From positions 1 to 44,880 of the forward strand of contig CALHAM010000080.1 in NCBI GenBank assembly GCA_937934275.1: a DNA stretch of 44,880 nt, read 5' to 3'. Under the pieces are notes generated by a model. The model was not told where the DNA came from. It made no database searches and saw only the letters and a program-made list of their open reading frames with translations. Shown one piece after another: positions 10,241 through 44,880 of the stretch. Position 1 is the stretch's first letter. Every line of letters starts with the position of its first letter. The translations under genes and the position numbers were made by a program. This DNA is from an uncultured Saprospiraceae bacterium (GTDB taxonomy: Bacteria; Bacteroidota; Bacteroidia; Chitinophagales; Saprospiraceae).

Positions 10241-10295
10241 AGGGTTGTCTTGTTTTGAACCGTTGGATGGGCAAAGGCTTAGGCCAATGGAGGGA

Positions 10296-10303
10296 CAAAA
10301 GTA
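10296..10303 (-). promoter_or_regulatory. Putative -7 element of the parC promoter
   Basis: TACTTTTG on the minus strand matches TAnnTTTG and lies 55 bases before the preferred parC start. A TTTG (10328-10331) sits 24 bases further upstream, slightly longer than the usual spacing. It also argues against the longer parC start at 10330. Confidence 0.45.
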
Positions 10304-10366
10304 GGATAAATGGGCTTTATTTTGAAACAAAAGTTTTTAAAAATGGGTGTTCAGGGCGTGTCTGCC

Positions 10367-24403: not shown

Positions 24404-24503
24404 AATTCGACAATCGGTTGGGTACCCAAGGCGGTACGGTTCAAAGCCTAATTGGTAAAAGCAGCAGGCGAATCAAGAGCAACTCTTCGACTTGGAGGCT
24501 GCG

Positions 24504-24511
24504 CAAAGGTA
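24504..24511 (-). promoter_or_regulatory. Putative -7 element upstream of leucyl aminopeptidase
   Basis: TACCTTTG on the minus strand, 100 bases before the ATG at 24403, in the 170-bp gap after the cyclase gene. No -33 TTG at the normal spacing. Confidence 0.4.
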
Positions 24512-24573
24512 GTCAAGGTCGCTGCTTCGATGTGAAAGGCAGCAAATAGGGGGCCAAATTAGCCTTGTAAGAC

Positions 24574-26952: not shown

Positions 26953-26976
26953 ACATCTCGTTTAAGGCTTAGCCGA

Positions 26977-27006
26977 CAAAGGTACACTCCCAGTAAAGTG
27001 GGGCAA
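26977..27006 (-). promoter_or_regulatory. Putative promoter of the TPR cyclase gene
   Basis: On the minus strand TTG (27004-27006), 19-base spacer, TACCTTTG (26977-26984), then 24 bases to the ATG at 26952. This fits the Bacteroidota -33/-7 pattern and argues for transcription independent of the patatin gene, whose stop is inside this region's upstream edge. Confidence 0.55.
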
Positions 27007-27018
27007 GCGCAAGCGCTT

Positions 27019-29856: not shown

Positions 29857-29924
29857 AGAGGGAGATTGAGGAAATGGACAAAGGCAGTAGCGCGCCCCTG
29901 CTTTTCAGAGGCTCTAAAAGGTCT

Positions 29925-29932
29925 CAAAGGTA
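29925..29932 (-). promoter_or_regulatory. Putative -7 element of the patatin gene
   Basis: TACCTTTG on the minus strand, 68 bases before the ATG at 29856. It lies in the 233-bp AT-rich divergent region shared with the small glycine-rich gene. No good -33 match. Confidence 0.45.
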
Positions 29933-30027
29933 CTGCCCGCACTAAAAAAAGAGGTTTCACTCAGATGTCGGCTTGCTTTTTTAAAAAAAATAGGCTAAAA
30001 TCGCATTAAAATATGCTAAAGGGTTGG

Positions 30028-30035
30028 TATTTTTG
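30028..30035 (+). promoter_or_regulatory. Putative -7 element of the glycine-rich small protein gene
   Basis: TATTTTTG matches TAnnTTTG and lies 54 bases before the ATG at 30090. The upstream stretch is strongly AT-rich. Confidence 0.45.
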
Positions 30036-30089
30036 CCTTAGACCGGGAGAATTCTTCTACAATTCACTACAAAACAAAACGACTTGCAC

Positions 30090-30458
30090 ATGAACACCAC
30101 ACTGATTTCTTCCGCTATAACCCTAATAGCCGGTTTTATTGTCAATAAATTTCTACCTGCGGGTTCGGCCACGTGGGCCTTGCCGCTCATCAGCGCTGTT
30201 GCTGGTATTGTGCTCAAGCAAGATCCCAAAATGGGGGCTACTTCTGGTGCGATAGGCGGCGGTGTTTTGGGCATTTTAGCCAGCGTATTGGGCGAAGCGG
30301 GTGGTCCCAGCTTAGGAGGGAATCTTCTAGGCGGTGCCTTAGGGCAAGAGACTGCGGATGGCCTCATTGGGTCGTTGCTCGGTGGCGGTATTTTAGGCGG
30401 AGCCGGCGGTGGCATTGGCGGCTTCTTGCAAGGCATGCTTAACAAGGCAAAAGCATAA
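30090..30458 (+). CDS. Small glycine-rich hydrophobic protein
   Basis: A 122-residue protein I do not recognise. The N-terminal 50 residues form two hydrophobic segments (LISSAITLIAGFIVNKFL, and WALPLISAVAGIVL after a PAGSAT turn). The rest is a glycine/leucine-rich stretch with repeated GG pairs (GGNLLGGALG, LLGGGILGGAGGGIGG), ending in a basic NKAKA. The pattern resembles a glycine-zipper membrane segment. The codon use is ordinary, and it has its own promoter-like element and a strong terminator, so it is a real single-gene unit. The ATG at 30090 is preferred to a TTG two codons upstream. It could be a membrane-inserting peptide or structural protein; nothing here decides. Confidence 0.7.
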   Translation: MNTTLISSAITLIAGFIVNKFLPAGSATWALPLISAVAGIVLKQDPKMGATSGAIGGGVLGILASVLGEAGGPSLGGNLLGGALGQETADGLIGSLLGGGILGGAGGGIGGFLQGMLNKAKA

Positions 30459-30488
30459 GAGTACCCCTCGACAGCGTTACGCGTTCTT

Positions 30489-30532
30489 CCCTTACCAGTT
30501 AGTTCCCGGTCGCTGGTAAGGGATTTTTGTTT
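30489..30532 (+). terminator. Rho-independent terminator after the glycine-rich gene
   Basis: Perfect 10-bp stem CCCTTACCAG (30489-30498) / CTGGTAAGGG (30513-30522), 14-base loop, then ATTTTTGTTT. It ends four bases before the next promoter-like element. Confidence 0.85.
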
Positions 30533-30535
30533 GCC

Positions 30536-30543
30536 TACCTTTG
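30536..30543 (+). promoter_or_regulatory. Putative -7 element of the lipoprotein gene
   Basis: TACCTTTG, only five bases before the ATG at 30549, so the mRNA would be leaderless if this is used. The -33 position falls in the preceding terminator and has no TTG. Confidence 0.4.
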
Positions 30544-30548
30544 CCTGC

Positions 30549-30908
30549 ATGCAAGAGCAAACCTTTTTAACCGTAAGCATGGCCTTAGCGGTGCTTCTGT
30601 TGTCGGGGTGCTCAAACCCGGCGCCCTCCAGTCGTTTCTCCGCCATAGCCGATGCCTACTGCGAGTGCACAACGCCTTTGGCAAGGCTCAACCAGGCCGT
30701 GGATACCCTCGGCCACGAACAGCTGTTGACCCAGTTCAGGCGCATTGAAGCCGCCTATAAACAAGCGCGTGAGTGCATGGTGGCCACCATTGGACAATAC
30801 GGCCCGTTGCAAGCCACCGAACTCGACAGCCTAACGCTACTACTCCAACAGCGATGCCCCGAAGTAGCCCACCAGCGCGACCTACTCGAAGAATTGCTCA
30901 GCCGATAA
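30549..30908 (+). CDS. Small lipoprotein of unknown function
   Basis: A 119-residue protein with a lipoprotein signal: hydrophobic MALAVLLLSG then C21 as the lipidation cysteine. The mature part is mostly helical and rich in charged residues. It has two adjacent cysteines in AYCECTTPLARL and two further ones (ARECMV, QRCPEV). The spacing does not fit a haem or zinc motif I know. The ATG at 30549 is preferred to an in-frame TTG at 30531, which falls inside the preceding terminator's T-tract. An ATG at 30579 would also give a very short signal. It is 37 bp upstream of folB on the same strand. Confidence 0.75.
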   Translation: MQEQTFLTVSMALAVLLLSGCSNPAPSSRFSAIADAYCECTTPLARLNQAVDTLGHEQLLTQFRRIEAAYKQARECMVATIGQYGPLQATELDSLTLLLQQRCPEVAHQRDLLEELLSR

Positions 30909-30945
30909 TCACAGTTTTTCGTTCACTGCAACCACCCCGTTTCCT

Positions 30946-31461
30946 ATGGCCTTTATCGCCATCGAAGGCATGCGCTTTCACGCTTACCACGGCGTCCATG
31001 AAGAAGAGCGGCGCGTCGGCGCCGAATACTTGGTGGATGTGTATGTTCAAACCGACATCACACAAGCTGCTGAAAAAGACGACATCGAGAAAACCATCAA
31101 CTACGAAACCATTTATCGCTTGTGCCAGATCGAAATGAGCCAGCCGCGCAACCTCATAGAAGCAGTAGTAGCAGCCCTGGTGGCGCGCATGAAAAATCAG
31201 TTTGACAACATGATGGCCCTTAGAGTGTGCGTCCGAAAGCTGCAGCCCCCTTTAGGCGGCCAGGTAGCCTCCGTCTACGTGCAAGAAGAAATCAGCTTCA
31301 TCACCGAGTGTCCTCGGTGCAGAAGGGCCTTTATCAGCTATGCGCCCGCCGACTGCTGGGAGCGCTTTCCCAACTTACACCCTGCCACCAAGGAAACGCT
31401 CTTGCGCCAATTTGGCGGCCGATGCCTGTGCGATAACTGCCTCAAGTTCTATGCCGGCTGA
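30946..31461 (+). CDS. folB: Dihydroneopterin aldolase fused to a CWC-like cysteine-rich tail
   Basis: A 171-residue fusion. Residues 1-118 are a FolB domain, which cleaves 7,8-dihydroneopterin in folate synthesis. The catalytic E21 (YHGVHEEERRVG), Y53 (TINYETIY) and K98 (VRKLQPP) match the family. Residues 121-171 hold six cysteines (CPRC at 122-125, CW at 137-138, then C160, C162, C165 in RCLCDNCLKFY). This resembles the cysteine-rich CWC family (CPRC...CWC...CLCP.CL), in which the tail may bind metal. Two of the usual CWC cysteines look replaced (after the CPRC and in the CW), so the tail could be degenerate. The gene converges on mtaB and their coding regions overlap by 13 bp. Confidence 0.85.
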   Translation: MAFIAIEGMRFHAYHGVHEEERRVGAEYLVDVYVQTDITQAAEKDDIEKTINYETIYRLCQIEMSQPRNLIEAVVAALVARMKNQFDNMMALRVCVRKLQPPLGGQVASVYVQEEISFITECPRCRRAFISYAPADCWERFPNLHPATKETLLRQFGGRCLCDNCLKFYAG

Positions 31462-32792
31462 AGCGTTACAGCCCGAACGACTTCGCCGTCGGCAGACAGC
31501 GCCTGCAGCCAAACATCCTGAAGCGCGTTGAACTGGCCGGCCTCTGCCGCTATCTCTATGCGAATGTAATTGTCTGTAAAGCCGCCCAAAAGCGCGGGGT
31601 CTTTGTGGCGCTCCAACAAGACCGGGCGCGCCGTATTCAGGTGCTGCTGATAAAAATACCGGCGCTTCATCTCCGACAGCCCGCGCAGCGCTTGGTTGCG
31701 GCGGCGGCGCTCTTCCATGGGCACAGCGCCCGGCATAGTGGCCGCAAGGGTGTTGGCCCGTTCGGAGTAGGTAAACACGTGCAAGTAGGAAACATCCAGT
31801 TGCTGCAGGAACTGATAAGTCTCCCAAAAATCCGTCTCCGTCTCGCCCGGAAAACCCACAATAACATCGCAGCCGATACAGGCGTGCGGCATCAAGCGCT
31901 TAATCGCCTCTACGCGCGCCGCATACCAGCTGCGCCGATAGCGTCGGCGCATGTCGCGCAGCTGTTTGTCGTTACCCGACTGCAACGGCACGTGAAAATG
32001 AGGCATAAAACGCCGGCTTTGCGCAACAAAAGCGATGATCTCATCCGTGAGCAGGTTCGGCTCAATACTGCTAATGCGAATGCGCGGCACATCTACAGCC
32101 TCATCTAAAGCGCGGATGAGGTCAATAAACAGCGCTTCTTTTTTGGGGCGCTGCCCCTCAATGACCGCCGTGCCGCGACCAAAATCGCCCAAATTGACCC
32201 CCGTAAGCACCAGCTCGCGCGCGCCCTGCTCGGCAAGGCCCCGCGCATTCGCCACCACATTTTCTATCGTGTCGGACCGGCTGGCCCCGCGCGCCTGCGG
32301 AATGGTGCAAAACGAGCACTTGTAATCGCACCCATCTTGTACTTTCAGGAAGGAGCGCGTCCGGTCGCCAAAAGAAAATGCCGCGTGAAACGCATTTACC
32401 TCGCGCACATCGCCTACGCGCACCATGCCCTTGCCCGGCGCCTTCGTCAGGTCGTCCACGTAGTCTAAAATGCGAAACTTCTCCCCAGCCCCCAGCACTA
32501 AATCTACCCCCGGGATGTCGGCAATCTCGTGCGGCTTTAGTTGCGCATAACAACCCGTAACCACCACAAAGGCATCGGGCTGACGGCGCAATGCCTGCCG
32601 AACCACCTTCTTGCACTCCCGATCGGCCTGCTCCGTTACCGAGCACGTGTTTATGATATAAATGTCGGCTTCCTCCTCGAAGCGCACGGGCAAATAGCCC
32701 TGCTGCTCGAAAAGACGCGCCAGCGCCGAAGTTTCTGAAAAGTTCAACTTACAGCCCAACGTATGAAAAGCAACGGTACGCGGCGTAGCCAT
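31449..32792 (-). CDS. mtaB: tRNA t6A37 methylthiotransferase MtaB
   Basis: A 447-residue radical-SAM methylthiotransferase of the MiaB/MtaB family; MtaB turns t6A37 into ms2t6A37 in some tRNAs. The N-terminal 4Fe-4S cysteines are C14 (TLGCKLN), C50 (NTCSVT) and C81 (TGCYAQ). The radical-SAM cluster is C155, C159 and C162 (GCDYKCSFC). The TLGCKLNFSET start and length are typical of MtaB rather than MiaB or RimO. The C-terminal TRAM-like domain is present. The start at 32792 (MATPRT) is preferred to the ATG at 32891 because a promoter-like element lies between them. It is divergent from dnaK. Confidence 0.92.
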   Translation of the reverse strand: MATPRTVAFHTLGCKLNFSETSALARLFEQQGYLPVRFEEEADIYIINTCSVTEQADRECKKVVRQALRRQPDAFVVVTGCYAQLKPHEIADIPGVDLVLGAGEKFRILDYVDDLTKAPGKGMVRVGDVREVNAFHAAFSFGDRTRSFLKVQDGCDYKCSFCTIPQARGASRSDTIENVVANARGLAEQGARELVLTGVNLGDFGRGTAVIEGQRPKKEALFIDLIRALDEAVDVPRIRISSIEPNLLTDEIIAFVAQSRRFMPHFHVPLQSGNDKQLRDMRRRYRRSWYAARVEAIKRLMPHACIGCDVIVGFPGETETDFWETYQFLQQLDVSYLHVFTYSERANTLAATMPGAVPMEERRRRNQALRGLSEMKRRYFYQQHLNTARPVLLERHKDPALLGGFTDNYIRIEIAAEAGQFNALQDVWLQALSADGEVVRAVTLQPA

Positions 32793-32815
32793 GGCGTTCT
32801 TCCTCAAAAGGTGCA

Positions 32816-32823
32816 CAAAGGTA
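32816..32823 (-). promoter_or_regulatory. Putative -7 element of mtaB
   Basis: TACCTTTG on the minus strand, 23 bases before the ATG at 32792. No TTG at -33. Confidence 0.45.
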
Positions 32824-33029
32824 CAGCCTTTCTGCTGGTTATCCCGCCCCTCGCGCCTTGAGCAAACCATGCGCGCGCCATTGGCTGCCAAAAAAGACTG
32901 CTACAAACGGCTAAAATGCCAAAAAGGCAGGTTTTGGACCGTGGCATGTTCATTGATGCGCACAAAAGTCAAATCTCTTTTGCAACAAATAACAAGGTTA
33001 GAACAGACTGCTTAAATCAGTTTTTTATC

Positions 33030-34916
33030 ATGGGAAAAATAATTGGCATTGACTTAGGAACGACAAACTCTTGCGTAGCCGTCATGATGGGCAACGAGCC
33101 GGTAGTGATTGCAAACGACGAAGGCGCTCGTACGACCCCATCAGTAGTCGCCTTCTTAGACAACGGCGAACGCAAAGTGGGCGCGCCGGCCAAGCGTCAG
33201 GCGATTACAAACCCGAAACGCACCATCTTTTCCATCAAGCGTTTCATGGGTATGCGCTACAGCGAGCGCGGCGATGAGATCGCGCGCGTGCCTTATAAAG
33301 TGGTGAAGGGCGACAACGACACCTGCCGGGTGGCTATAGATGACCGCGTTTATACGCCGCAAGAAATTTCGGCCATGATCCTCCAAAAAATGAAAAAGAT
33401 CGCGGAGGACTACTTGGGCGAACCCGTAACGGAAGCCGTCATCACGGTGCCCGCATACTTCAACGACTCGCAACGCCAAGCGACCAAAGAAGCCGGCGCC
33501 ATTGCCGGCCTGGAAGTCAAGCGCATCATCAACGAGCCGACAGCTGCTGCCTTGGCCTACGGCTTGGACAAGCGCGACAAGGAAATCACCGTGGCGGTGT
33601 ACGATCTGGGCGGCGGTACGTTCGATATTTCCATCCTGGAATTGGGCGGCGGTGTCTTCGAGGTAAAAGCCACCAACGGCGACACCCACTTGGGTGGCGA
33701 CGACTTCGACCAGATCATCATCAACTGGCTGGCCGACGAGTTTCAACGCGAAGAGCGCGTGGACTTGCGCAAAGACCCCATGGCCTTGCAGCGCTTGCGC
33801 GAGGCGGCGGAAAAAGCGAAAATCGAGCTGTCCTCGAGCATTGAAACCGAGATCAACCTGCCCTACATCACGGCCGTAGACAACCAGCCCAAACACTTAG
33901 TGAAAAAACTGTCGCGCGCGCAATTCGAGAAAATGATCGACCACCTCGTAGAGCGCACCTTAGAGCCTTGCCGCAAAGCGCTTGCCGATGCGGGCCTGAA
34001 GCCTCAAGACATTGACGAGGTCATCCTTGTGGGTGGTTCTACGCGCATTCCGCGCATTCAGGAGGCGGTAGAGCAGTTCTTTGGCCGCAAGCCCAACAAG
34101 AGCGTCAACCCCGACGAAGTGGTGGCCATCGGCGCTGCTATTCAAGGCGGCGTCTTGAGCGGAACCGTCTCCGACGTACTGCTGCTCGACGTAACCCCGC
34201 TTTCCTTAGGCATCGAAACCCTGGGCGGCGTGTACGACGTCATTATCGAAGCCAACAAGACCATCCCCATCAAGCGCTCGAAAATCTACTCCACAGCGGC
34301 CGACAATCAGTCGCAAGTAGAGATACACGTCCTGCAAGGCGAGCGCCCTATGGCCAAAGACAACCGCTCGGTGGGCCGCTTCATCCTGGACGGCATTCCG
34401 CCAGCACCCCGAGGAGTGCCCCAAATCGAAGTTACCTTCGACATTGACGCCAACGGCATCCTGTCGGTAACGGCCATGGACAAAGGCACCGGCAAAAAGC
34501 AAAACATCCGCATCGAAGCCAGCACTGGCCTAAGCAAAGAGGAAATTGCCCGCATGAAAGCCGAGGCCGAGGCCAACGCAGAGGCCGACCGCATTGCTCG
34601 CGAACGGGCCGAAAAGCTCAACGCGGCCGATACCCTCATCTTCCAGACCGAAAAGCAATTGCGTGAGTACGGCGAAAAAATTCCGCAACACCTGCGCGAA
34701 AACATCGAAAAAGCCGTAGCAGACTTGCGCGAAGCCCACAAAGTGCAAGACTTCAACCGAATAGACACCGCAAGCCAAGCGTTGGAGGCCGCCTGGAGCG
34801 CTGCCAGCCAAGCCATCTATCAGAATGCGCAAGCGGGCAACAGCCAAAACGACGGCGCCGGTGCAACCTCCGGAAGCGGCGCTCAAGACGTAGAATTTGA
34901 GGAAGTGAAAAACTAA
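33030..34916 (+). CDS. dnaK: Molecular chaperone DnaK (Hsp70)
   Basis: A 628-residue Hsp70, the ATP-dependent chaperone that works with DnaJ and GrpE. The nucleotide-binding signatures are intact: [13 protein letters not shown] at the N-terminus, [15 protein letters not shown] in the middle and [13 protein letters not shown] later. The substrate-binding domain carries [17 protein letters not shown]. The C-terminus ends in VEFEEVKN, a common DnaK variant. The ATG at 33030 ([10 protein letters not shown]) is the family start; an upstream in-frame start at 32916 would add 38 unlikely residues. No grpE or dnaJ nearby. No CIRCE operator is seen, and no TAnnTTTG lies in the 237-bp gap before it. 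Confidence 0.98.
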
Positions 34917-34948
34917 GCGCTGTCTACTGAAGGACAGTGCAAGGCTTC

Positions 34949-34984
34949 GGCGCCCTCGAGCGATGCATATCCCTCGAGGGCGCC
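34949..34984 (+). terminator. Stem-loop after dnaK, probably a terminator
   Basis: Perfect 12-bp stem GGCGCCCTCGAG (34949-34960) / CTCGAGGGCGCC (34973-34984) with a 12-base loop. Only TTACCTTTG follows, so the T-tract is poor, and a promoter-like element starts two bases further on. Confidence 0.6.
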
Positions 34985-34985
34985 T

Positions 34986-34993
34986 TACCTTTG
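34986..34993 (+). promoter_or_regulatory. Putative -7 element of the AstE/AspA-like gene
   Basis: TACCTTTG, 13 bases before the ATG at 35007 and directly behind the 12-bp stem-loop. The expected 5' leader is only about five to ten bases. Confidence 0.45.
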
Positions 34994-35006
34994 TGGCGTT
35001 GCAGCT

Positions 35007-35954
35007 ATGAAACGTCTAATAGGACGCTACACCGGGAGCCGGCCCGGTGCCTTGGTGGTCGTAACCGCTGCCCTACACGGCAATGAGCCTGCCGGCGTAC
35101 TTGCCTTAGAGGAGGTTTTCCGACTGTTGGCTCAAGAGCCGCAAGCCAACCCTGACTTTATCTTCAACGGCCGGTTGGTAGGGCTTGTCGGCAATCTGCA
35201 GGCGTATCGAGCGCAGAAACGCTTTTTAGAGCAAGACCTCAACCGAATGTGGACACCGCTGCACCTGCGCTGCCTGCAGCAGATGACCCCCACAGAACGG
35301 CACGCTGAATGGCGCGAACTGCATGGCTTGTTGCAAGCCATCCAAGAAGAAATCCTCAACTACAAGCCGCAGGCACTCATTTTGTTAGACCTGCATACGA
35401 CTTCGGCCGGCGGAGGTATCTTTTGCATCCCGACCGACGACCGCGCCAGCCTGCGCCTAGCTAAGGCCCTGTACGCGCCTGTGGTGTTGGGGCTGCTGGA
35501 CGGCCTGCAAGGAACACTGCTCCATTTCACGGCGGGCAATCACTTCGAAGTAGGTGGATACCCCCATTACTCCGTCGGCGTCGCTTTCGAAGCGGGTCAG
35601 CACGACGACCCACTCTCGGTAGACCGCTCTGTGGCGGCGATCATCCATGCGCTTCGCGCAGCAGGATGCCTTCGCCCCGAAGACGTAGACAGCCGCCACG
35701 AACGCATGCTGCGCGCTTTTTCAGAACCGCTTCCCAAAGTAACGCGCCTCCGACACGTACACCACATCCGCCCGGGCGACACCTTCGGTATGCGGCCCGG
35801 ATACGTCAATTTCCAGCCCATCCGCCGCGGCGAACACCTCGCCGACGATGCCAGCGGCCCCGTACTGGCTCCTGAAGACGGCCTCATCCTAATGCCTCTT
35901 TACCAACCGATAGGATCCGACGGTTTCTTCGTTGTGCAAGAGGTTACAGGTTGA
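35007..35954 (+). CDS. Succinylglutamate desuccinylase/aspartoacylase family deacylase
   Basis: A 315-residue zinc hydrolase of the AstE/AspA branch of the M14 fold. The zinc ligands are H24 and E27 (HGNEPAG) and H130 (LLDLHTTS), and the catalytic glutamate is E195 (VAFEAGQHD). Family members remove acyl groups from N-acyl amino acids or related amides; the substrate cannot be read from sequence. The C-terminal part (about 235-315) is a small beta domain typical of the family. It is followed 72 bp downstream by kbl on the same strand, so a role in amino acid catabolism is possible but not shown. Confidence 0.88.
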   Translation: MKRLIGRYTGSRPGALVVVTAALHGNEPAGVLALEEVFRLLAQEPQANPDFIFNGRLVGLVGNLQAYRAQKRFLEQDLNRMWTPLHLRCLQQMTPTERHAEWRELHGLLQAIQEEILNYKPQALILLDLHTTSAGGGIFCIPTDDRASLRLAKALYAPVVLGLLDGLQGTLLHFTAGNHFEVGGYPHYSVGVAFEAGQHDDPLSVDRSVAAIIHALRAAGCLRPEDVDSRHERMLRAFSEPLPKVTRLRHVHHIRPGDTFGMRPGYVNFQPIRRGEHLADDASGPVLAPEDGLILMPLYQPIGSDGFFVVQEVTG

Positions 35955-36026
35955 GGCCCCCGAAGCCCATGCGCACGCAAAGCGTTTACAGCCCAGACCA
36001 TACCCTTCTTCAAACCCATCGCATTC

Positions 36027-37217
36027 ATGTTTACCAACGTCAAACCTGCTATCGAACGCGAATTAGCCGAGCTGCGCGAAGCCGGCCTCTACAAAGAGGA
36101 GCGCATCATCACTACGCCCCAAGGCCCCGTCATCGACACCACGGCACAAAAGGAATTGCTCAACTTCTGCGCCAACAACTATTTAGGGCTTAGCAGCCAC
36201 CCCGAAGTCATCCAGGCCGCCATCGAGGCCATTCGCACGCACGGATACGGCCTTTCTTCCGTCCGCTTCATTTGCGGAACGCAAGACATCCACCGCGAAC
36301 TCGAACAGCGCATCGCCCACTTCTTAGGGATGGAAGACGCCATCCTGTATGCCGCCGCCTTCGACGCCAACGGCGGCCTGTTCGAACCTTTGCTCACCGA
36401 AGAGGACGCCGTCATCAGCGACGAACTCAACCACGCCTCCATCATCGACGGTATCCGACTGTGCAAAGCCAAGCGCTTCCGATACCGACACAACGACATG
36501 AACGCCCTGGAAGACTGCCTCCAAGAAGCCCATGCTGCCGGCGCGCGCCGCAAACTCATCTTCACCGATGGCGCCTTCTCTATGGATGGAACCATCGCCC
36601 AATTGGACAAAATCTGCGACTTGGCCGAACGCTACGACGCCATGGTGGGCATCGACGAATGCCACGCCACCGGCTTTTTGGGCCAAACGGGCCGCGGCAC
36701 CCACGAGTATCGCAACGTCATGGGCCGAGTAGACATCATTACCGGCACGCTCGGCAAAGCCTTAGGCGGCGCTAGCGGAGGCTTTACGGCCGCCCGCCGT
36801 GAAATTGTGGACATCTTGCGCCAGCGCTCGCGACCCTACTTGTTTTCCAACACTTTGGCGCCCGCTATTGTGGGCGGCAGCCTCAAGGTGCTCGAACTCC
36901 TGAGCAACACCACTGCCCTGCGCGATAAACTGGAGGCCAACACCCGATGGTTCCGCAAAGCCATGACCGATGCCGGCTTCGACATCCTCCCAGGCGAACA
37001 CCCCATCGTGCCCATCATGCTTTACGACGCTCCGCTCGCCCAAACCTTCGCCCGTCGCCTACTCGACGAAGGCATCTACGTCATCGGATTCTTCTACCCC
37101 GTCGTCCCTAAAGGAAAGGCCCGTATTCGCGTCCAGCTCTCCGCTGCCCACGAACCCGAACACTTGGAAAAATGCGTCGCTGCTTTCGCTAAAGTGAAGC
37201 GCGACCTAGGCATATAG
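36027..37217 (+). CDS. kbl: Glycine C-acetyltransferase (2-amino-3-ketobutyrate CoA ligase)
   Basis: A 396-residue PLP enzyme of the alpha-oxoamine synthase family. The PLP lysine is K244 in [14 protein letters not shown]. Other PLP-contact motifs are [12 protein letters not shown] (131-142) and [13 protein letters not shown] (207-219). It closely matches Kbl, which with threonine dehydrogenase (tdh) converts threonine to glycine and acetyl-CoA; no tdh gene is in the window. The ATG at 36027 gives a standard length. It might be cotranscribed with the deacylase upstream. Confidence 0.93.
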
Positions 37218-37329
37218 GCCCGAATTTTGCACCAACGGCAAAACCCGCTTTCAAGCGGTCGGCCGCTTCCTCGCTTACTCCACTCGCTTTTAATCGTTCA
37301 TCCTTTTACCTCCACATGCTCGCTCTGTC

Positions 37330-38040
37330 ATGACTCCTCTGCGCTGCATCATCGTTGAAGACGAACCACTGGCGGCTGAAATTCTGACCGAATACATTCA
37401 GATGACGCCTTTTCTGCAACTGGTGGACGTTTGCCCGGACGCCGTTAAAGCGCTTGAGGTCGTGCGGGAAAAACCCGTAGACGTCATCTTCTTAGACATC
37501 AACCTGCCCAAACTAACGGGTTTAGAGTTCATTAAAAGCTTGCCACAGCAGCCCAAAATCATCATCACTTCGGCTTACCACGAGTTTGCCGTGGAGGGGT
37601 TCGACTTGCAAGTGGTAGACTACTTGCTCAAGCCCATTGAGTTCAACCGCTTTACTAAGGCGGTGAATAAGGTCCTGTATACGCACCGCATTCAGGGGGT
37701 AGCCGCCCAGTACCGGAGGTCCATCTCGCAGCGCCCTTTCTACTTTTTCGCCGTCCAGAAGCGGTCGGTCAAAATTTATCTGGACGAAATTTTGTTCATC
37801 GAAAGCCTAAAAGATGCCGTCATCATCCATACGGCCGACAGCTCGTATGCGACGCATTACCACTTGAACGAACTGGAAGAGTTGCTGCCTCGAGAGTACT
37901 TTCTGCGCATTCACCGCTCTTTTTTAGTTGCCATTGACAAGATCGACTCCTTCTCGGCCGCTGAAGTGGAAGTGGGCGGTCGAACGCTGCCCATCGGGCG
38001 CAAATACAAGGAGCACGTGTCGGAGCGGCTGGAAGCGTAG
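37330..38040 (+). CDS. LytTR-family response regulator
   Basis: A 236-residue two-component regulator. The receiver domain (1-120) has the acidic pair E10/D11, the phospho-acceptor D56 (VIFLDINLP), the switch T80 and the lysine K101 (LLKPIE). The DNA-binding LytTR domain (about 135-236) carries KRSVKIYLDEILFIESL and REYFLRIHRSFLV. A partner histidine kinase (usually LytS-like) is not adjacent, so it is an orphan here. Targets unknown. The gene converges on the LptF/G permease with a 58-bp gap. Confidence 0.92.
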   Translation: MTPLRCIIVEDEPLAAEILTEYIQMTPFLQLVDVCPDAVKALEVVREKPVDVIFLDINLPKLTGLEFIKSLPQQPKIIITSAYHEFAVEGFDLQVVDYLLKPIEFNRFTKAVNKVLYTHRIQGVAAQYRRSISQRPFYFFAVQKRSVKIYLDEILFIESLKDAVIIHTADSSYATHYHLNELEELLPREYFLRIHRSFLVAIDKIDSFSAAEVEVGGRTLPIGRKYKEHVSERLEA

Positions 38041-38098
38041 CCCTCCGGGCAAGCACATGGGCTTTTGCACATACGCCTTCCCTTGGCAAAAAGTGGCC

Positions 38099-39181
38099 TC
38101 ACTTCTGCGCCTTGTACACCAGATAGAGCGCCACAGCGGTGAACAGCACATTGGGAATCCACATCCCGACCAGCGGCGGCACATTTCCACTGGCCGCAAA
38201 CGATATAGCAAACTTAGACATGAGGATGTAAAGGGCACCCACGCCGATGCCGATGGCTAAGTGTAGCCCCATGCCGCCGCGCACTTTGCGAGCTGCCACG
38301 GCCACTCCAATAAGGGTGAGGATGAGTGTAGTAAAAGCATCGGCAGTGCGGCGGTGCAGTTCGATTTCGAACTGCCGAGACGTCAGAAGGCCTCGGCGGC
38401 GGTCGCGTTCAATGGCGGCGAGCAACTCGGGCGTCGTCATTTCCTCGTTGAGGTTGTGAAACCACACGAAGTCCATGGGAGTTAAGTTGAGCAGCGTATC
38501 CAAGGGCAGTTGCCCGTGCTGGAGGGTTTCGCGCAGGCCGTCGAAGGTGCGGATGTAGTACGTGCTCAGGCGCCAGCGCTGGCTTTCCTCTTGCCAAACG
38601 GCCTGTTGGGCGCTGAGCAGGCTGGTAAGGCGGTTGTTGCGAAACTGGTCTACGCGCAGGCCAATGATCGTTTGGGTGTTGGGGTTATAGTCGCGCACAA
38701 AAATGCGCGTATCGGGCGCCACCAGCAAATACACATTGCTGTTGCGGCCTTTGGGGTCCGTCCATACGTAGGTGCGCTCGAATTGTAAACGCGACTTGCT
38801 GCTTTGCGGTACGATAAAGTGGTTGAGGGCCAAGTGCAACAACATGATGCCCCCAGCCGTCAGTAAGTAAGGGCGCAGCAACCGCTGAAAGCTCACCCCA
38901 GCATTCAGAATGGAGAGAATCTCCGCATTGAACGCCATGCGCGACGTGAAGAAAATCACGGCAATCAACACATACAGCGGCAGCAGCAAGCCACCCATGT
39001 AGAAAATGAAGCCCACGTAATAGTCAACCAAAATCTCCTTCAAGGTGCACGGCTTTTCAATGAACGACTTCACCTTCTCGCTGAAGTCAATGGCCATGGA
39101 GATCACCGTGAAGATGAGCAGCGAGAAAAAGAACGTGGAGACGTATTTGCGGATGAGGTATCGGTCAAGTGTCTTGAGCAT
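38099..39181 (-). CDS. LptF/LptG family lipopolysaccharide export permease
   Basis: A 360-residue YjgP/YjgQ family permease. Three helices precede a large periplasmic jellyroll-like segment and three follow it (about 15-33, 62-85, 100-117, then 272-295, 305-325, 332-350). LptF and LptG, with LptB, extract LPS from the inner membrane. The opening MLKTLDRYLIRKYVSTFFF resembles LptG rather than LptF, but I cannot decide. The start at 39181 is preferred to the ATG at 39223. It is divergent from the SRPBCC gene, and their possible leader regions overlap. Confidence 0.88.
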   Translation of the reverse strand: MLKTLDRYLIRKYVSTFFFSLLIFTVISMAIDFSEKVKSFIEKPCTLKEILVDYYVGFIFYMGGLLLPLYVLIAVIFFTSRMAFNAEILSILNAGVSFQRLLRPYLLTAGGIMLLHLALNHFIVPQSSKSRLQFERTYVWTDPKGRNSNVYLLVAPDTRIFVRDYNPNTQTIIGLRVDQFRNNRLTSLLSAQQAVWQEESQRWRLSTYYIRTFDGLRETLQHGQLPLDTLLNLTPMDFVWFHNLNEEMTTPELLAAIERDRRRGLLTSRQFEIELHRRTADAFTTLILTLIGVAVAARKVRGGMGLHLAIGIGVGALYILMSKFAISFAASGNVPPLVGMWIPNVLFTAVALYLVYKAQK

Positions 39182-39266
39182 GAGCGAACGCGGCGTAAGG
39201 AGAGCGCCAATGGATTTTGCCACGGCAAATATCGGTTGCCCACAGCCGGCTTTGTGCGCTTTGTGC

Positions 39267-39295
39267 TTTGATCGAGCGGTTTTCCAATACTTTTG
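39267..39295 (+). promoter_or_regulatory. Canonical Bacteroidota promoter of the SRPBCC gene
   Basis: TTTG (39267-39270), 17-base spacer, TACTTTTG (39288-39295), then 26 bases to the ATG at 39322. This is the clearest -33/-7 match in the window and supports the shorter start of the downstream gene. Confidence 0.65.
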
Positions 39296-39321
39296 CCGGG
39301 CCTTTCAACCGCAATATTCTT

Positions 39322-40407
39322 ATGATAAAACGAAGCGTCTTGGTGCGCCTTTTTCGCTTCTTGCTCTATGGGGTGTTGATTGCCGGCGCACTGCTGGCTT
39401 TATTCGGGCTTTTTGCCAAACAGGAATACCTCATTGAGCGACAGATCGCCATAGCCGCTCCACCGGAGCTGGTGTACGACCAAGTGCGCTATTTTCGCAA
39501 TTTTCGCGTGTGGTCGCCCTGGGCTGGGCTGCAGGCCGATATCCGCTTAGAGGGCGAAGACGGCCTGCCTGGAGCGGCCTACCACTGGTCGGGCGAGGGC
39601 GAAACGGGCAGCGGAACAATGGTACTGAAGGCAGTAGCGCCCCAACGGCTCGACTTTGAAGTAAGCACAACCCGACCCTATCGCAGCACTTCGCCTACCT
39701 GGTTTGTCGTTGCCGCCGACAGCCACCTCACCCGTGTTACCTGGGGCTTTCGCATGCAGATCAGCTATCCGTGGAACGGATTAGCTATGTTTACGGACGT
39801 CAACACCTATGTGGGTAAAGATTTCGCGCGCGGGCTGGAGAACCTCAAGCGCCATTGCGAAGTCATGATGCCTCGCCTATATGCTGGCTACGAAGTGCGC
39901 GAAGAGGAGCGCGACGAGCAGCGCTACGCCGGCCTCCGCCTGAACGTGCCCTTAGAACAGGGAGAGGCGTTTGTGCGAGAACAGCTGGAAAAACTGACCC
40001 TCTTGGTGCGCCAGCGCCGGCTTGTGCCCAATGGGCCTATGGTTGCCCTGTTCTGGACGATAGACAGTCTTGCCGGCCAAACCGACCTCGCTGTAGCAGT
40101 GCCTGTGGCGACAGGGCAGCGAACGCCTCCTCAGCTGCAAGTCTTTGCGCTCGACGGCGGCCAGTACTGTTGGGTGGAAAGCCGAGGCCAGCCTGACCTA
40201 AACACCGCGCAAAAAGCCCTTGCACTGTACTTAGAGGAAAAAGGCCGGATAGGCCTCCCGCCCGTAGTGGTCGAATACCAACGCTATTGGCCAACCGAGC
40301 GGGATACGGCCGAGTGGGCGCTGCGCATCGGCCTCCGCGCTGTAGCACCGCCACCTGACTCAACAGAGGTGGACGGCGGCAAAGCCGACGACAACGGCGA
40401 GCAGTAG
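39322..40407 (+). CDS. Membrane-anchored SRPBCC/GyrI-like protein
   Basis: A 361-residue protein. One N-terminal helix (about 7-28) is followed by an SRPBCC (START-like) domain (about 38-190; note the IAAPPELVYDQVRYFRNF opening). A GyrI-like effector-binding domain follows (about 195-345; GYEVREEERDEQRYAGLRL). In regulators, GyrI-like domains bind small ligands; here there is no DNA-binding domain, so it may sense or hold a hydrophobic or amphipathic ligand at the membrane. The start at 39322 is chosen over the in-frame ATG at 39217, since a canonical promoter lies between them. Only seven bases separate it from the convergent esterase gene. Confidence 0.8.
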   Translation: MIKRSVLVRLFRFLLYGVLIAGALLALFGLFAKQEYLIERQIAIAAPPELVYDQVRYFRNFRVWSPWAGLQADIRLEGEDGLPGAAYHWSGEGETGSGTMVLKAVAPQRLDFEVSTTRPYRSTSPTWFVVAADSHLTRVTWGFRMQISYPWNGLAMFTDVNTYVGKDFARGLENLKRHCEVMMPRLYAGYEVREEERDEQRYAGLRLNVPLEQGEAFVREQLEKLTLLVRQRRLVPNGPMVALFWTIDSLAGQTDLAVAVPVATGQRTPPQLQVFALDGGQYCWVESRGQPDLNTAQKALALYLEEKGRIGLPPVVVEYQRYWPTERDTAEWALRIGLRAVAPPPDSTEVDGGKADDNGEQ

Positions 40408-40414
40408 TGCGCGC

Positions 40415-42259
40415 CTATTGCCGCGCAACCCACTGCAGCTGACTACTCCTGCGGCTACTGATACGCGCCAAATAAAGCCCTGCTGGCAGGTTGGTCAGGT
40501 CGAACGACACTTCGCCTGCCGCGCTTGTCCATTGCAGGCGCCCTAAAGTATCGAACACCTGCAAACGCACCTCAGGGTCTTCGGGGCCATTCAGGTAGAG
40601 GCGGCCAGCGGTCGGGTTAGGCGAAAGGACCCACAAGCCCTGCCCCCTATTCGAGGCATCGGCCGAACGGCTGCTCTTGCACGGAACAAACCCGATGATT
40701 TGATCCCACAGGTCGCTCTCCAGCGTACGCACGCCGCAGGACGAACCCTCAGGCGTAGCCTTCAACTCGAGATAGCAATCGGCAGGGCTTTCGTAGCGCG
40801 GCCAGCCGACCAGCCCCGGGCCGTTGGGGTTGCCGCTGCGCGCAAAGTTAGTCCAATAGCGCAGCGCGTTTTGCTGCATGCTGTCGTCGGCGGGCCGGAA
40901 GAGCGGTCCGCTGCCGAGCGCAGCATTTTCCCAGGTGTTAAACACGTAGAACAGCTCCATGCCGTGATAGGCCCCGAAGGGCTGCAAGAGGGGCACGGTG
41001 TGGCGAAAGGTGAAGAAGTAGCGCCAGACGGGTTCTGTTTGGTTTTTGCTGATGCAATCGGCTACGCGCCGCGCCGGGGCCGTAAACTGCAGGTCGCTGA
41101 CCAAAGCCACGTAGGCGGCGCGCGCCTGCTCGTTGGTGGTGCCGGGCGGGTAGGCGGCCAGCACCTGAGGGCGGTAGAAGGGTGGTATAGTAGCTTGCAC
41201 GAACGCCTGCAACATTTGGGGGGTTACTACTGCAGGCGCGTAGAGGCTCATTTCCTCGCTGTTGGAGCCAACAAGGAGCGGCACGCGGTGGTGCTGGCCG
41301 CTTTGTATGGCCTCGAAAGGGCTTTGCGGAAACCAATAGCCATCCAACACCGGCTGCCACGGCGCCCGCGTAAGGCCGTTGCCTGCAATGGGGCTGGAGT
41401 CGCCGCTGACCAGCGAGTCGGCCGGCAACGCCCGCAGGTAGGCCACTTGCTGTGCAGCAGTGCCGGCGGCGCCGAGTTTTTGGGCGAAGGCGACACCCTC
41501 AGCGCGCGCAGTAGCATAGTCTTTGAGGCGTGGCGAGCCGCTCTGCAAAATGGCGCGGTGAAAAAGCCCTCGAGCCGCCGGCATGACCAGCAGATTGCCC
41601 ACATTGACCGCGCCGGCGCTTTCGCCAAAAACCGTTACCCTCGCAGGGTCGCCGCCAAAAGCCTCGATGTTTTGCTGCACCCATTGTAGCGCAGCCACCT
41701 GATCGAGGGCACCGTAGTTGCCCGCCTTGCCCCAAGCGCTCTCCGCCTCCAAACCCGGATGCACCATAAAACCTAACGCCCCAAGCCGATACTGAAGAGT
41801 AACCACCACTACGTCGCCCCGCTTGGCTAAGTTCTTGCCCTCATAGAGACGCGCACCGCCGCTAACCTGTCCCGTAGCGCCTTGCTGATTGCCGCCCCCG
41901 TGAACAAAGACCATCACCGGCAGCCGACCGCTCAAGTCGGGCGTCCAGACGTTGAGGTACAGACAGTCCTCCTGACCTATCGCCTTGCCGACCGTATCGC
42001 CCGGAGCAAATTCCTTTTGCGGGCACGCCGGCGGAAAAACCTGCGCCAGCCGAACCCCCGACCACCCCAACGGCGCCTCCGGCGGCGCCCAGCGAAACGC
42101 CCCCACCGGAGGACGCGCGTACGGAATGCCCAAAAAAGCATAAACGCCATCCTGAACCAACCCCTGAACAGCACCCTGAGCGGTGTTGACCACCACCTGC
42201 CCCCAAGCCCAAGAGATGGCTCCAACCAACAGTCCGAAAATCAAAGTATTCTTCTTCAT
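40415..42259 (-). CDS. Secreted type B carboxylesterase with T9SS sorting domain
   Basis: A 614-residue secreted alpha/beta-hydrolase. Signal peptide residues 1-20 (ending AWG-Q). The carboxylesterase type B triad is S214 in GESAGAVN, E336 in GSNSEEMS and H432 in AYHGMELF, with the oxyanion GGGNQQG at 121-127. EDCLYLNVW (97-105) is the family signature. The C-terminal 75 residues are a T9SS sorting domain (LSPNPTAGRLYL, ending AGLYLARI...). The natural ester substrate is unknown. The start at 42259 begins the signal peptide; the longer in-frame start at 42409 runs through non-coding-like residues. Confidence 0.93.
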   Translation of the reverse strand: MKKNTLIFGLLVGAISWAWGQVVVNTAQGAVQGLVQDGVYAFLGIPYARPPVGAFRWAPPEAPLGWSGVRLAQVFPPACPQKEFAPGDTVGKAIGQEDCLYLNVWTPDLSGRLPVMVFVHGGGNQQGATGQVSGGARLYEGKNLAKRGDVVVVTLQYRLGALGFMVHPGLEAESAWGKAGNYGALDQVAALQWVQQNIEAFGGDPARVTVFGESAGAVNVGNLLVMPAARGLFHRAILQSGSPRLKDYATARAEGVAFAQKLGAAGTAAQQVAYLRALPADSLVSGDSSPIAGNGLTRAPWQPVLDGYWFPQSPFEAIQSGQHHRVPLLVGSNSEEMSLYAPAVVTPQMLQAFVQATIPPFYRPQVLAAYPPGTTNEQARAAYVALVSDLQFTAPARRVADCISKNQTEPVWRYFFTFRHTVPLLQPFGAYHGMELFYVFNTWENAALGSGPLFRPADDSMQQNALRYWTNFARSGNPNGPGLVGWPRYESPADCYLELKATPEGSSCGVRTLESDLWDQIIGFVPCKSSRSADASNRGQGLWVLSPNPTAGRLYLNGPEDPEVRLQVFDTLGRLQWTSAAGEVSFDLTNLPAGLYLARISSRRSSQLQWVARQ

Positions 42260-42401
42260 GGCGTCAAGTTTTTCTCCAAAACTCCCCTTCCGGCAATGGC
42301 CGCAAAAGCGGAATATCCTTAAGACCCGCCTACAACGCATCCGTTTAAACGGCGCTGAGGTACAAAATAAGGGCACATCGGGCTGCTCTTCGCCTATGCA
42401 A

Positions 42402-42433
42402 AAGGCCACCGGAGCAATACCTCCGATGGCCTT
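42402..42433 (-). terminator. Terminator of the persulfide-dioxygenase/rhodanese gene
   Basis: On the minus strand the stem AAGGCCATCGGAG / CTCCGGTGGCCTT (13 bp with one G-U pair) has a six-base loop and is followed by TTTTGC. It lies 35 bases after the stop at 42469 and before the esterase start. Confidence 0.7.
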
Positions 42434-42468
42434 CGATGCCTTACACCTCTCGGCATTGAAACTATCCC

Positions 42469-43881
42469 TTACAGCTCGGTGATCTGTTCGCGATACTCCG
42501 ACAAGGCCACTTTGCCGGTCGCCTTAATGGCCTTGAAGCCGCCCTCTACGTTGACCATGTTGTCGAACCCGCGGTTTTTGAGAATGCTGATGGCGATGAC
42601 GGAGCGGTAGCCCCCTGCGCAATGCACCAAGTACTGGACGTCTTGGCGCAGCTCCGCCATGTTTTTGTTGATAAAATCGAGCGGGAAGTTCTGAGCACCG
42701 ATGACGTGTTCGGTTTCGTACTCGCTCCTGCGGCGCACATCGAGCACTACCGCGTTGGGGGCCTTCATGCGGCTGACGAACGTCTCTGCGCTGATGCTTT
42801 CGAGGCTGTCTATATCTTTCCCAGCAGCCTGCCACGCGGCAAAGCCGCCTTTCAGATAGCCAAGCGCGTTGTCGTAGCCCACCCGCGCTAAGCGCGTTAC
42901 CGCTTCCTCCTCACGACCAGCCGGGCACACCAGCAATATGGGCTGTTGTAGATCGGGAATGAGCGTACCCACCCAAGAGGCAAATTGGCCGTCTAACCCA
43001 ATGAAAACAGCGCCGGGAATGTACCCCTTGACAAACTCTTGTTCCGAGCGCGTGTCCAAAATAAGAGCGTTTTCCACCTCCGCCACCGCCACAAATTCCT
43101 CTACCGACAGCGGACGAACCCCGCGTTGCAATACCTCGTCAATGCTCTCGTAGCCCATGCGGTTGAGCACGGCATTCTTCGGGAAATACTGCGGAGGCTC
43201 CACCAAGCCCGTCGTTACTTCGCGGATGAACTCCTCGCGCGTCATGTCGGCCCGCAAGGCGTAGTTCAACTGCTTTTGCTGACCAATTGTCGAAACCGTC
43301 TCCTTAGCCATCTTCTTGCCGCATGCCGAACCCGCCCCATGCCCCGGATAAACGCGCACATCGTCGGGCAGCGTCATAATCTTCGAGCGCAGCGAGTCGT
43401 ACAGATAGCCCGCCAAATCCTCCCGCGTCAAGTCCGACTTCACCGCTAAATCCGGACGACCTACATCGCCGATGAACAGTGTGTCGCCCGTGAAAACAGC
43501 TACTTCCTTGCCGTCCTTGTCGAGCAACAAAAAGCACGACGACTCCATCGTATGCCCCGGGGTGTGCAAAACGCGGATTTTTACCTTCCCTACCGGCAGC
43601 TCTTCGCCGTCTTGAGCGATGTATGCCTCAAAGTTGGGCTTCGCCGTCGGGCCATAGACGATTTTCGCCCCCGTCTTCTTGGCCAAATCCAAATGCCCCG
43701 ACACGAAGTCGGCGTGAAAGTGCGTCTCCAGCACGTACTTGATCTTGGCCCCGTCTCTTTCGGCGCGCTCGATGTACGGCGCTACCTCGCGCAGCGGGTC
43801 AATGATGACCGCTTCTCCCTCGCTTTCGATGTAGTAGGCGGCTTCCGCCAGACAACCGGTATACAATTGTTCTACCTTCAT
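42469..43881 (-). CDS. Persulfide-dioxygenase-like metallo-beta-lactamase with two rhodanese domains
   Basis: A 470-residue three-domain protein. The MBL domain (1-230) has the THFHADFVSGH motif (H54, H56, D58) with further ligands H110 and D133, matching mononuclear-iron persulfide dioxygenases, which oxidise glutathione or similar persulfides to sulfite. Cysteine C10 (TGCLAEAAYY) is near the N-terminus, as in CstB-like enzymes. Two rhodanese domains follow, with candidate active-site cysteines C319 (VCPAGREE) and C421 (VHCAGGYRS). The layout resembles CstB, which couples persulfide oxidation to thiosulfate formation. The start at 43881 (MKVEQL) is preferred to 43974. It is probably transcribed alone and is cytoplasmic. 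Confidence 0.9.
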   Translation of the reverse strand: MKVEQLYTGCLAEAAYYIESEGEAVIIDPLREVAPYIERAERDGAKIKYVLETHFHADFVSGHLDLAKKTGAKIVYGPTAKPNFEAYIAQDGEELPVGKVKIRVLHTPGHTMESSCFLLLDKDGKEVAVFTGDTLFIGDVGRPDLAVKSDLTREDLAGYLYDSLRSKIMTLPDDVRVYPGHGAGSACGKKMAKETVSTIGQQKQLNYALRADMTREEFIREVTTGLVEPPQYFPKNAVLNRMGYESIDEVLQRGVRPLSVEEFVAVAEVENALILDTRSEQEFVKGYIPGAVFIGLDGQFASWVGTLIPDLQQPILLVCPAGREEEAVTRLARVGYDNALGYLKGGFAAWQAAGKDIDSLESISAETFVSRMKAPNAVVLDVRRRSEYETEHVIGAQNFPLDFINKNMAELRQDVQYLVHCAGGYRSVIAISILKNRGFDNMVNVEGGFKAIKATGKVALSEYREQITEL

Positions 43882-44208
43882 ACACACAGATATTTTTAGT
43901 TTGAACCATGAGAAAAATAACACACCCAAAGGTGCGGGAGTACGCGCCAAAGCCAACATGACACTTGTCCTCATTTAAAAAATAATTGATCATTGCTTTT
44001 TTGAAAAAAAAGGATTATTGCCTGTAAAAAATCCAAACGCAACTATAAAAAGTACAGGAGCAGCCCCTCATTTTTGCCGCTGCGCCTGCACTCGCGCGCA
44101 CGGGAGCCTCCTTCCGAGAAGAAAAAAGGCCGCTTCCCGTTGGGCGAACGCTCCAAAAAGCCCTCCCGCAACCCGCTATCTTCAAAAAAGACAACCCACC
44201 CCTACCCC
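43882..44208 (+). other. 327-bp intergenic region before the LRR gene
   Basis: The divergent gap between the persulfide dioxygenase-like gene and the LRR gene. The left half is AT-rich with several A- and T-runs (about 43970-44055). CATTTTTG at 44069-44076 is one base off TAnnTTTG, 132 bases before the LRR start. I see no hairpin, tRNA or small gene in it. Confidence 0.5.
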
Positions 44209-44880
44209 ATGTCCGAACTCGCCCTCCAACTCATCGAAAAAAACAAGCAAACCCGCAACCCTGTGCTCGACCTCGGCAAATGCGGTCTCACCCACCTGCC
44301 CGACGAGATCGGCGACTGCACCTGGCTCGAAACCCTCATCCTGAGCAACAGGTGGTGGGAATACGACGAGGAGCAAAAAAAATGGGTAAGCAAAACAAGC
44401 CAGAACAAAGGCGAAGAAAACCGCCTCGAAGCGCTGCCCGCACGCCTTGCCCTACTGAAAGGTTTGAAAAAGTTATTCATTGGTGGTGAACTCTTTAATG
44501 AATGGTCACTGTCTGACCTCAGCCCGCTCAGACAATTGACCCAGTTGAAAACGCTCGACTGCTCCGGCACCTCGGTGAGCGACCTCAGCCCGCTCAGCCA
44601 ATTGACCCAGTTGCAAACGCTCAACTGCTCCTTCACCTCGGTGAGCGACCTCAGCCCGCTCAGCCAATTGACCCAGTTGCAATCGCTCGAATGCTCCCAC
44701 ACCCAGGTGAGCGACCTCAGCCCGCTCAGCCAATTGACCCAGTTGCAAGATCTCCGATGCTCCTTCACCCAGGTGAGCGACCTCAGCCCGCTGAGCCAAT
44801 TGACCCAGTTGCAAACGCTCTACTGCGGCGGCACCCGGGTGAGCGACCTCAGCCCGCTGAGCCAATTGACCCAGTTGCAA
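44209..44880 (+). CDS. Leucine-rich-repeat protein, Roco-like N-terminus (cut by window end)
   Basis: 224 codons are present and the reading frame runs off the window. The start MSELALQLIEKNKQTRNPVL, then LDLGKCGLTHLPDEIG and WLETLILSN, resembles the opening of bacterial Roco (LRR-Roc-COR) GTPases found in Saprospirales and cyanobacteria. The Roc/COR part would lie downstream and is not visible, so that identity is inference. From residue 103 the protein is a tandem array of 22-residue LRRs (DLSPLSQLTQLQTLNCSFTS, then VS), encoded by near-identical 66-bp units. No signal peptide is seen, so it is probably cytoplasmic. The ATG at 44209 is the best start: it gives the Roco-type opening, and the region upstream looks non-coding. 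Confidence 0.8.
   Translation, partial: MSELALQLIEKNKQTRNPVLDLGKCGLTHLPDEIGDCTWLETLILSNRWWEYDEEQKKWVSKTSQNKGEENRLEALPARLALLKGLKKLFIGGELFNEWSLSDLSPLRQLTQLKTLDCSGTSVSDLSPLSQLTQLQTLNCSFTSVSDLSPLSQLTQLQSLECSHTQVSDLSPLSQLTQLQDLRCSFTQVSDLSPLSQLTQLQTLYCGGTRVSDLSPLSQLTQLQ
44515..44880 (+). repeat. 66-bp tandem repeats encoding LRRs
   Basis: Units begin at 44515, 44581, 44647, 44713, 44779 and 44845 (the last is partial). Each unit codes for 22 residues. About 40 bases per unit are nearly invariant (GACCTCAGCCCGCT, CAATTGACCCAGTTG). Changes cluster in codons 13, 15, 17, 18 and 20, with two more in the first unit (codons 6 and 12). The array continues past the window. Confidence 0.95.

Follow-up and report, generated by a model that had tools for sequence, protein, structure and literature searches.

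What kind of protein is encoded at the very end of this stretch of DNA, and why do its nearly identical repeats differ from one another almost only by amino acid replacements? The stretch analysed here (the window, 44,880 bp) is the entire contig C80 of a 3.43-Mb draft genome (G000) that comprises 157 contigs and is estimated to be 99.9% complete. The contig end at position 44880 cuts through an array of leucine-rich repeats (LRRs) where the reading frame is still open, and the remaining units are unreadable. The start of the gene (Table 1) was picked by homology, since relatives begin at the corresponding ATG, and the same frame stays open further upstream. No RNA family scored above its gathering threshold in the window.

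Table 1. Features at the 3' end of the window
Feature	Position	Strand	Basis
Protein-coding gene, 5' portion, encoding the LRRs of a probable LRR-Roc-COR-TIR protein	44209..44880	+	224 codons seen, stop-free translation, LRR_4 E 2e-32
N-terminal cap and irregular repeats preceding the array	44209..44514	+	AlphaFold2 model; alignment with 20 relatives
LRR unit 1 (DLSPLRQLTQLKTLDCSGTSVS)	44515..44580	+	Tandem Repeats Finder and codon table
LRR unit 2 (DLSPLSQLTQLQTLNCSFTSVS)	44581..44646	+	Tandem Repeats Finder and codon table
LRR unit 3 (DLSPLSQLTQLQSLECSHTQVS)	44647..44712	+	Tandem Repeats Finder and codon table
LRR unit 4 (DLSPLSQLTQLQDLRCSFTQVS)	44713..44778	+	Tandem Repeats Finder and codon table
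LRR unit 5 (DLSPLSQLTQLQTLYCGGTRVS)	44779..44844	+	Tandem Repeats Finder and codon table
Partial LRR unit 6, 36 bp, ended by the contig edge	44845..44880	+	Contig ends at 44880
Region upstream of the LRR gene	44010..44208	+	Identity to G072 drops at ~44019 from ~99.5% to ~92-94% (binned alignment and difference list)

Codon variation within the array

Tandem Repeats Finder delineated the array (44515-44880) as a single in-frame run with a period of 66 bp, 5.5 copies and 89% matches, which bears out the five full units and one partial unit recognised in an earlier, sequence-only reading of this DNA. The five full units share a mean pairwise identity of 87%, and adjacent units differ at 3 to 6 codons. 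As that reading had also observed, codon 5 (CTC/CTG) is the sole codon with a purely synonymous difference. Replacements distinguish the full units at codons 6, 12, 13, 15, 17, 18 and 20; the residues originally named for codons 13, 15, 18 and 20 were correct, and variation at codons 6 (R/S), 12 (K/Q) and 17 (S/G) had been missed. The proposed recent expansion is supported, the array having probably grown by duplication of the 66-bp unit.

A minimum-change count over the array yielded 21 changes, comprising 19.5 replacement and 1.5 synonymous changes. With a neutral synonymous share of 0.23, the probability over the whole unit is 0.03 of finding one synonymous change or none and 0.11 of finding two or fewer; taken alone, the array-wide replacement bias is weak. 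The changes are strongly clustered, with 15 of the 21 falling at codons 13, 15, 17 and 18 (p = 1.4e-6 for 14 or more), test sites that were taken from a study of brown-algal LRR-ROCO proteins (PMC11378527) after the variable codons of the window had already been inspected. Positively selected concave-face sites are reported there at positions 14, 16, 18 and 19, which by our own mapping on the LxLxxN motif would correspond to these four codons. Computed between units, the rate was 14.5 replacements over 8.7 sites at the four codons versus 1.5 synonymous changes over 14.9 sites in the whole unit, a ratio of 16.7 (p = 4.2e-5, calculated from 14 replacement and 2 synonymous changes, and with only 21 changes underlying the test). 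In a simulation with the variable codons free and the framework fixed, so few framework changes were seen in none of the 1880 runs counted (from a total of 4200, those with a variable-site divergence within 10% of that observed or above), a procedure that leans towards its outcome through its star tree and its seven variable codons picked from the data.

An AlphaFold2 model based on an alignment with 20 relatives (pLDDT 96.4) predicts, in the N-terminal part, a helix at residues 3-15 followed by irregular strands and short helices, and then one strand per full unit, formed by codons 13-15 in each of units 1-5 (residues 115-117, 137-139, 159-161, 181-183 and 203-205). Within each strand, codon 14 is a leucine with codons 13 and 15 on either side; as is general in LRRs, these two would point towards the concave side, and codons 17, 18 and 20 would be exposed. 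The earlier claim that replacement-biased change occupies positions expected on the concave side is supported: 15 changes cluster at four codons, and the model places codons 13-15 in a strand. Among solved folds, internalin A matched the model best, and the LRR domain of the Roco protein from Chlorobium tepidum (5il7, 6hlu) took ranks 7 and 9. As a separate observation, the third base of codons 17, 18 and 20 is constant (C, C and G, respectively) in all eight regular full units that the window and its best relative, G072, have between them, the first two bases being variable, most of all at codon 18; codon bias or a mutational trace could account for this pattern.

Within 35 arrays of the family, a count that holds the G072 gene twice (L076 and L107), mean residue diversity was highest at codons 13 (0.73), 15 (0.70) and 18 (0.66). 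A family-wide replacement excess obtained from unit pairs picked by low synonymous difference was rejected, this choice being biased and the excess non-significant outside the window once the choice was unbiased. The unbiased test, run without L107 on 34 arrays (that of the window and 33 others), chose unit pairs on codons 1-11 and scored them on codons 12-22, with 5-9 of the 33 other arrays qualifying. At codons 13, 15, 17 and 18, these carried 0.37-0.44 replacements per site versus 0.27-0.42 synonymous changes, and zero lay inside the bootstrap interval for their difference at all three settings; under the same pair choice, the window array showed 0.58-0.63 replacements versus 0.05-0.09 synonymous changes per site. 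The 33 arrays are neither all independent nor all Roco (L056, L078 and L090 contribute two runs, L034 is a near-copy of L035, and short LRR frames make up L040 and L041); arrays with fewer than four consecutive regular units were left out (G038, G027), and G072 was included only through counting degenerate neighbouring repeats, which raises its divergence. The window array is, on this sequence comparison, an outlier and not the family rule, because the other qualifying arrays have no significant excess. For the same reason the claim of diversifying selection, which is the best reading of the data though not a proven one, is kept to the window array, and the suggested likeness to recognition LRRs would apply to this array, with its ratio of 16.7, and not in general.

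The host protein and its relatives

Over residues 1-102, the window protein is 89% identical to that of G072 (L085, a complete frame of 969 aa on the minus strand with its ATG at 8779), and over residues 1-96 it is 79% identical to the G038 protein. The G072 protein contains LRRs, a Roc domain (E 4.7e-19), a COR-A match below the Pfam cut-off (23.9 vs 35.3) and a TIR_2 domain; in the G038 protein Roc was detected with an E-value of 4.3e-20 and COR-A above the cut-off. Within the window's own genome, contig C15 ends in a piece that is 89% identical to the C-terminal part of the G072 protein and matches a profile of eight relatives at model positions 621-920 (E 8e-58). Its sole Pfam domain is TIR_2 (E 2.3e-16), and PADLOC recognises it as ThsB (TIR; E 2.6e-19). 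Judging from these alignments, the two pieces are very probably parts of one gene, the middle of which (the rest of the LRR, Roc and most of COR) is unassembled. Searches of the assembled genome gave no match to COR-A (PF16095) and none to Roc above the cut-off, with two weak Roc matches below it. The C15 piece could instead represent a second gene copy, because its downstream flank differs from that of G072 and the dS to G072 is unequal, 0.07 for the window piece vs 0.22 for the C15 piece. The window gene very probably encodes an LRR-Roc-COR-TIR protein, and the Roco host proposed earlier is supported indirectly, through the domains of L085 and the C15 piece. PADLOC returned no match on the LRR part of the window protein. 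N-terminal matches number only one in the window's own genome and up to 13 in relatives.

Relatives were found in 36 of 42 genomes of the genus at E 0.001 and in 25 of 199 genomes drawn from the family at 1e-25, the window's own genome being included in both counts. The Pfam scan covered 20 relatives or pieces, a subset of those fetched, and all comparisons are between species with one genome each. Apart from the C15 piece and two LRR-only frames, all are LRR-NTPase proteins; of these 17, one has NACHT and the other 16 a Roc domain that exceeds the curated cut-off. Among the 16 Roc relatives, COR-A was below the cut-off in two (L085 and L088), and the effectors comprised TIR_2 in eight, CHAT in one, EAD11 in one above and two below the cut-off, and DUF4062 in one (below the cut-off), with three lacking an effector match, one of them an interrupted frame. 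Six of 58 candidate stretches in named genomes encode relatives, which at 29-39% identity are too distant to help, and a viral origin was rejected, none of the 11 viral-contig stretches that match a pattern encoding a relative.

Several of these loci have features of their own. The reading frame of the G027 relative (L046, about 8281-10959) is interrupted, either as a pseudogene or through a sequence error. Two LRR-only frames, L050 7349-8773 (minus strand) and L058 9892-11334 (minus strand), end near the expected Roc start, suggesting either truncated receptors or a reserve of units. The protein of L091 5592-8861 (minus strand) in G192 has a 14-unit array of CSSTQISDLSPV-type LRRs, with the same 22-residue type, the same type of sensor being joined to a different NTPase, NACHT with NNH5 and not Roc-COR. 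In the window's own genome, L073 4689-5900 (plus strand; G000:C141) encodes a separate protein whose TIR-like start matches the profile of the family (E 1e-32) and precedes a long stretch of charged residues; by eye, the next frame has the look of a formylglycine-enzyme-type domain.

The LRR gene lies away from the window's upstream genes in G038 (same contig, ~195 kb off) and in G027 and G028 (other contigs). The upstream neighbour in the window, 42469-43974 (minus strand), combines a metallo-beta-lactamase fold with rhodanese domains and is presumably a persulfide dioxygenase fusion. Window positions 40851-44018 match L085 8217-12138 (G072:C15) over ~3.15 kb at ~99.5% identity, with 16 differences. 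G072 is placed in another genus, its other listed matches to window positions 24401-44000 are 67-75% identical, and its contig stops where the ~99.5% match stops; the near-identical segment may reflect either a recent transfer or a chimeric contig.

Turnover of units and competing explanations

With moderate confidence, we favour the following explanation as a whole. The window would end within the 5' sensor part of an LRR-Roc-COR-TIR gene that belongs to the AP-GTPase (Roco) conflict class of bacteria, and its array would have expanded recently via duplication of a 66-bp unit; during or after this growth, the concave-face codons would have outpaced synonymous sites, leaving the framework almost fixed. 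The concave face may bind a foreign or self/non-self ligand, binding would move the Roc-COR GTPase between closed and open states, and this shift would turn on the C-terminal TIR, resulting in NAD use, growth stop or signalling. What we infer is that this very gene carries Roc, COR and TIR, that diversifying selection caused the variation, and that the protein is cytoplasmic and serves in signalling and defence.

Both quantities that had been proposed for comparison across related genomes, here of other species, proved to differ. The number of regular units is at least 5.5 in the window, three in G072 and one in G038, and three and at least five in G027 and G028, respectively, which have the upstream gene neighbourhood in common with the window; the residues at the variable codons differ as well. 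Variation in unit number favours recombination, whereby units would be gained, lost and exchanged among alleles or paralogues through unequal crossing-over and conversion, reshuffling a pool with one framework in the manner of fungal NLR repeats. Further points in its favour are AGA at codon 6, common to the first unit of the window and the first units of G072, the GTA AAA end common to the last units of G072 and G038, the rest of which differs, and the small difference in framework DNA. Between the window and G072, synonymous differences per site amount to 0.048 in the framework and 0.070 in the N-terminal part, and between the window and G038 to 0.166 and 0.223, with replacement at six variable codons at 0.42 and 0.47, respectively. 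The dN/dS of the N-terminal part is 0.83 to G072 (few changes) and 0.43 to G038, and constraint on this part does not appear strong between the window and G072. However, the assembled genome holds no second array of this framework that could act as donor: a DNA search with the unit found only itself, and the framework pattern, with at most three mismatches, occurs at six places, all inside the array. Moreover, conversion tracts alone would not hold single codons different around one invariant codon, so that selection would still be needed. As an explanation for the array, recombination is possible, and we judge it somewhat unlikely.

Neutral drift after recent duplication, with the LRR fold holding the framework, the concave positions being free and a small sample inflating the replacements, we consider unlikely. 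It agrees with the 5-9 of 33 other arrays in which replacement is about equal to synonymous change at codons 13, 15, 17 and 18, and with the overall replacement excess of the window, which is marginal by itself. By contrast, the window rate at these codons, ~17 times the synonymous rate (p 4.2e-5), argues against drift, as does the free-codon simulation, where 0 of 1880 runs had so few framework changes, a result favoured by the choice of codons. Relaxed constraint as the only cause is disfavoured for the window array and possible for the family.

It is quite improbable that the gene lacks Roc-COR and encodes LRRs only, or that its product is a surface protein resembling internalins. LRR-only frames do occur among relatives (L050, L058), internalin A is the top fold match, and NCBIfam internalin models match the LRR part, with a best E-value of 4e-24 and scores far below the cut-offs; however, the score for the internalin A model is 84.9 bits vs a cut-off of 1600, on which membership was rejected, and the N-terminal alignment with Roco relatives shows 79-89% identity. 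Slightly less probable still is an assembly artefact, in which the array would be a strain mosaic and the contig end an assembler break, its unit order and number belonging to no real cell. The contig does end inside the array, and 4 of 17 picked N-terminal matches in relatives stop <100 bp from a contig end, but neighbouring units differ at 3 to 6 codons, and G072, G004 and other relatives hold similar arrays within contigs.

Directed mutagenesis by a diversity-generating retroelement or a similar system, the other half of the earlier suggestion of diversifying selection or directed variation, is very improbable and was rejected: although codon 18 is NNC in every one of the eight regular full units from the window and G072, the kind of pattern expected from an AAC template, neither the reverse transcriptase nor the template repeat envisaged earlier was found in the assembled genome (RVT_1 had no matches there, the same search being positive in 3 of 14 control genomes), codons 13 and 15 vary at their third positions as well, and more than one base is affected.

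Known systems and implications

We know of no TIR domain and no near-identical array in the Chlorobium tepidum Roco protein (CtRoco). Its LRR fold (5il7, 6hlu) matches the model of the window protein, and it was solved as LRR-Roc-COR, with the order N-terminal LRR, Roc and COR. The CtRoco LRR is described as folding back on Roc-COR and moving off upon binding of a GTP analogue, and a nanobody on its concave face as incompatible with the closed form (PMC11052575). A concave-face ligand could, by analogy, switch the GTPase of the window protein and free its TIR. In plants and bacteria, TIR domains often act as enzymes producing isomers of cyclic ADP-ribose (PMC10022894).

The receptor class as such was already described in 2021: in bacterial AP-GTPase conflict proteins, COR and LRRs described as fast-evolving are combined with at least 24 types of effector, TIR and EADs among them, and several paralogues per bacterium are possible, with 11 in Haliscomenobacter hydrossis (eLife; PMC8195603). 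The window gene is a striking new member of this class and not a new kind. It resembles the class in its fast-evolving LRR; the class has AP-GTPase-COR and a variable C-terminal effector, whereas the Roc/COR of the window gene is unassembled. The section on the class in that paper contains no codon- or unit-level analysis of the repeats, and no unit-level selection study of bacterial Roco LRRs was found in the literature searched, which excluded most subscription papers. According to a 2019 review, the physiological roles of Roco proteins in bacteria and archaea are barely known (PMC6337361).

Comparable repeat variation is described in two eukaryotic systems. Brown-algal LRR-ROCO proteins (PMC11378527, which cites a 2012 paper of Zambounis et al. 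on them) are likewise LRR-ROC-COR proteins with repeats of conserved frame and variable residues. Unlike in the window, which has a single bacterial reading frame, each of their repeats is an exon, subject to exon shuffling and alternative splicing, and LRR-ROC-COR is given there as the sole domain plan, so that a TIR is not part of it. Fungal NLRs whose internal repeats are highly conserved (PMC4986451) likewise show changes in unit number and positive selection at set positions; they differ in being STAND NTPases with WD, TPR or ANK repeats, and the account given there reports no LRRs. The window array provides a bacterial case for comparison with both systems. Draft assemblies can break in such arrays, as happened in the window and in 4 of 17 picked relatives' matches, and receptor repertoires may consequently be under-counted.

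That replacements fall mainly on the predicted binding face, the framework DNA being almost fixed, suggests a ligand that changes and hence a testable role in recognition. Tentatively, the sensor of some bacterial LRR-Roc-COR-TIR receptors may be renewed unit by unit, a near-fixed 66-bp unit being duplicated or lost and its concave codons replaced far above the neutral rate, so that sister lineages would carry different specificities. If this holds true, such receptors would constitute a bacterial counterpart of the brown-algal LRR-ROCO repertoires, operating without introns and without a reverse transcriptase.
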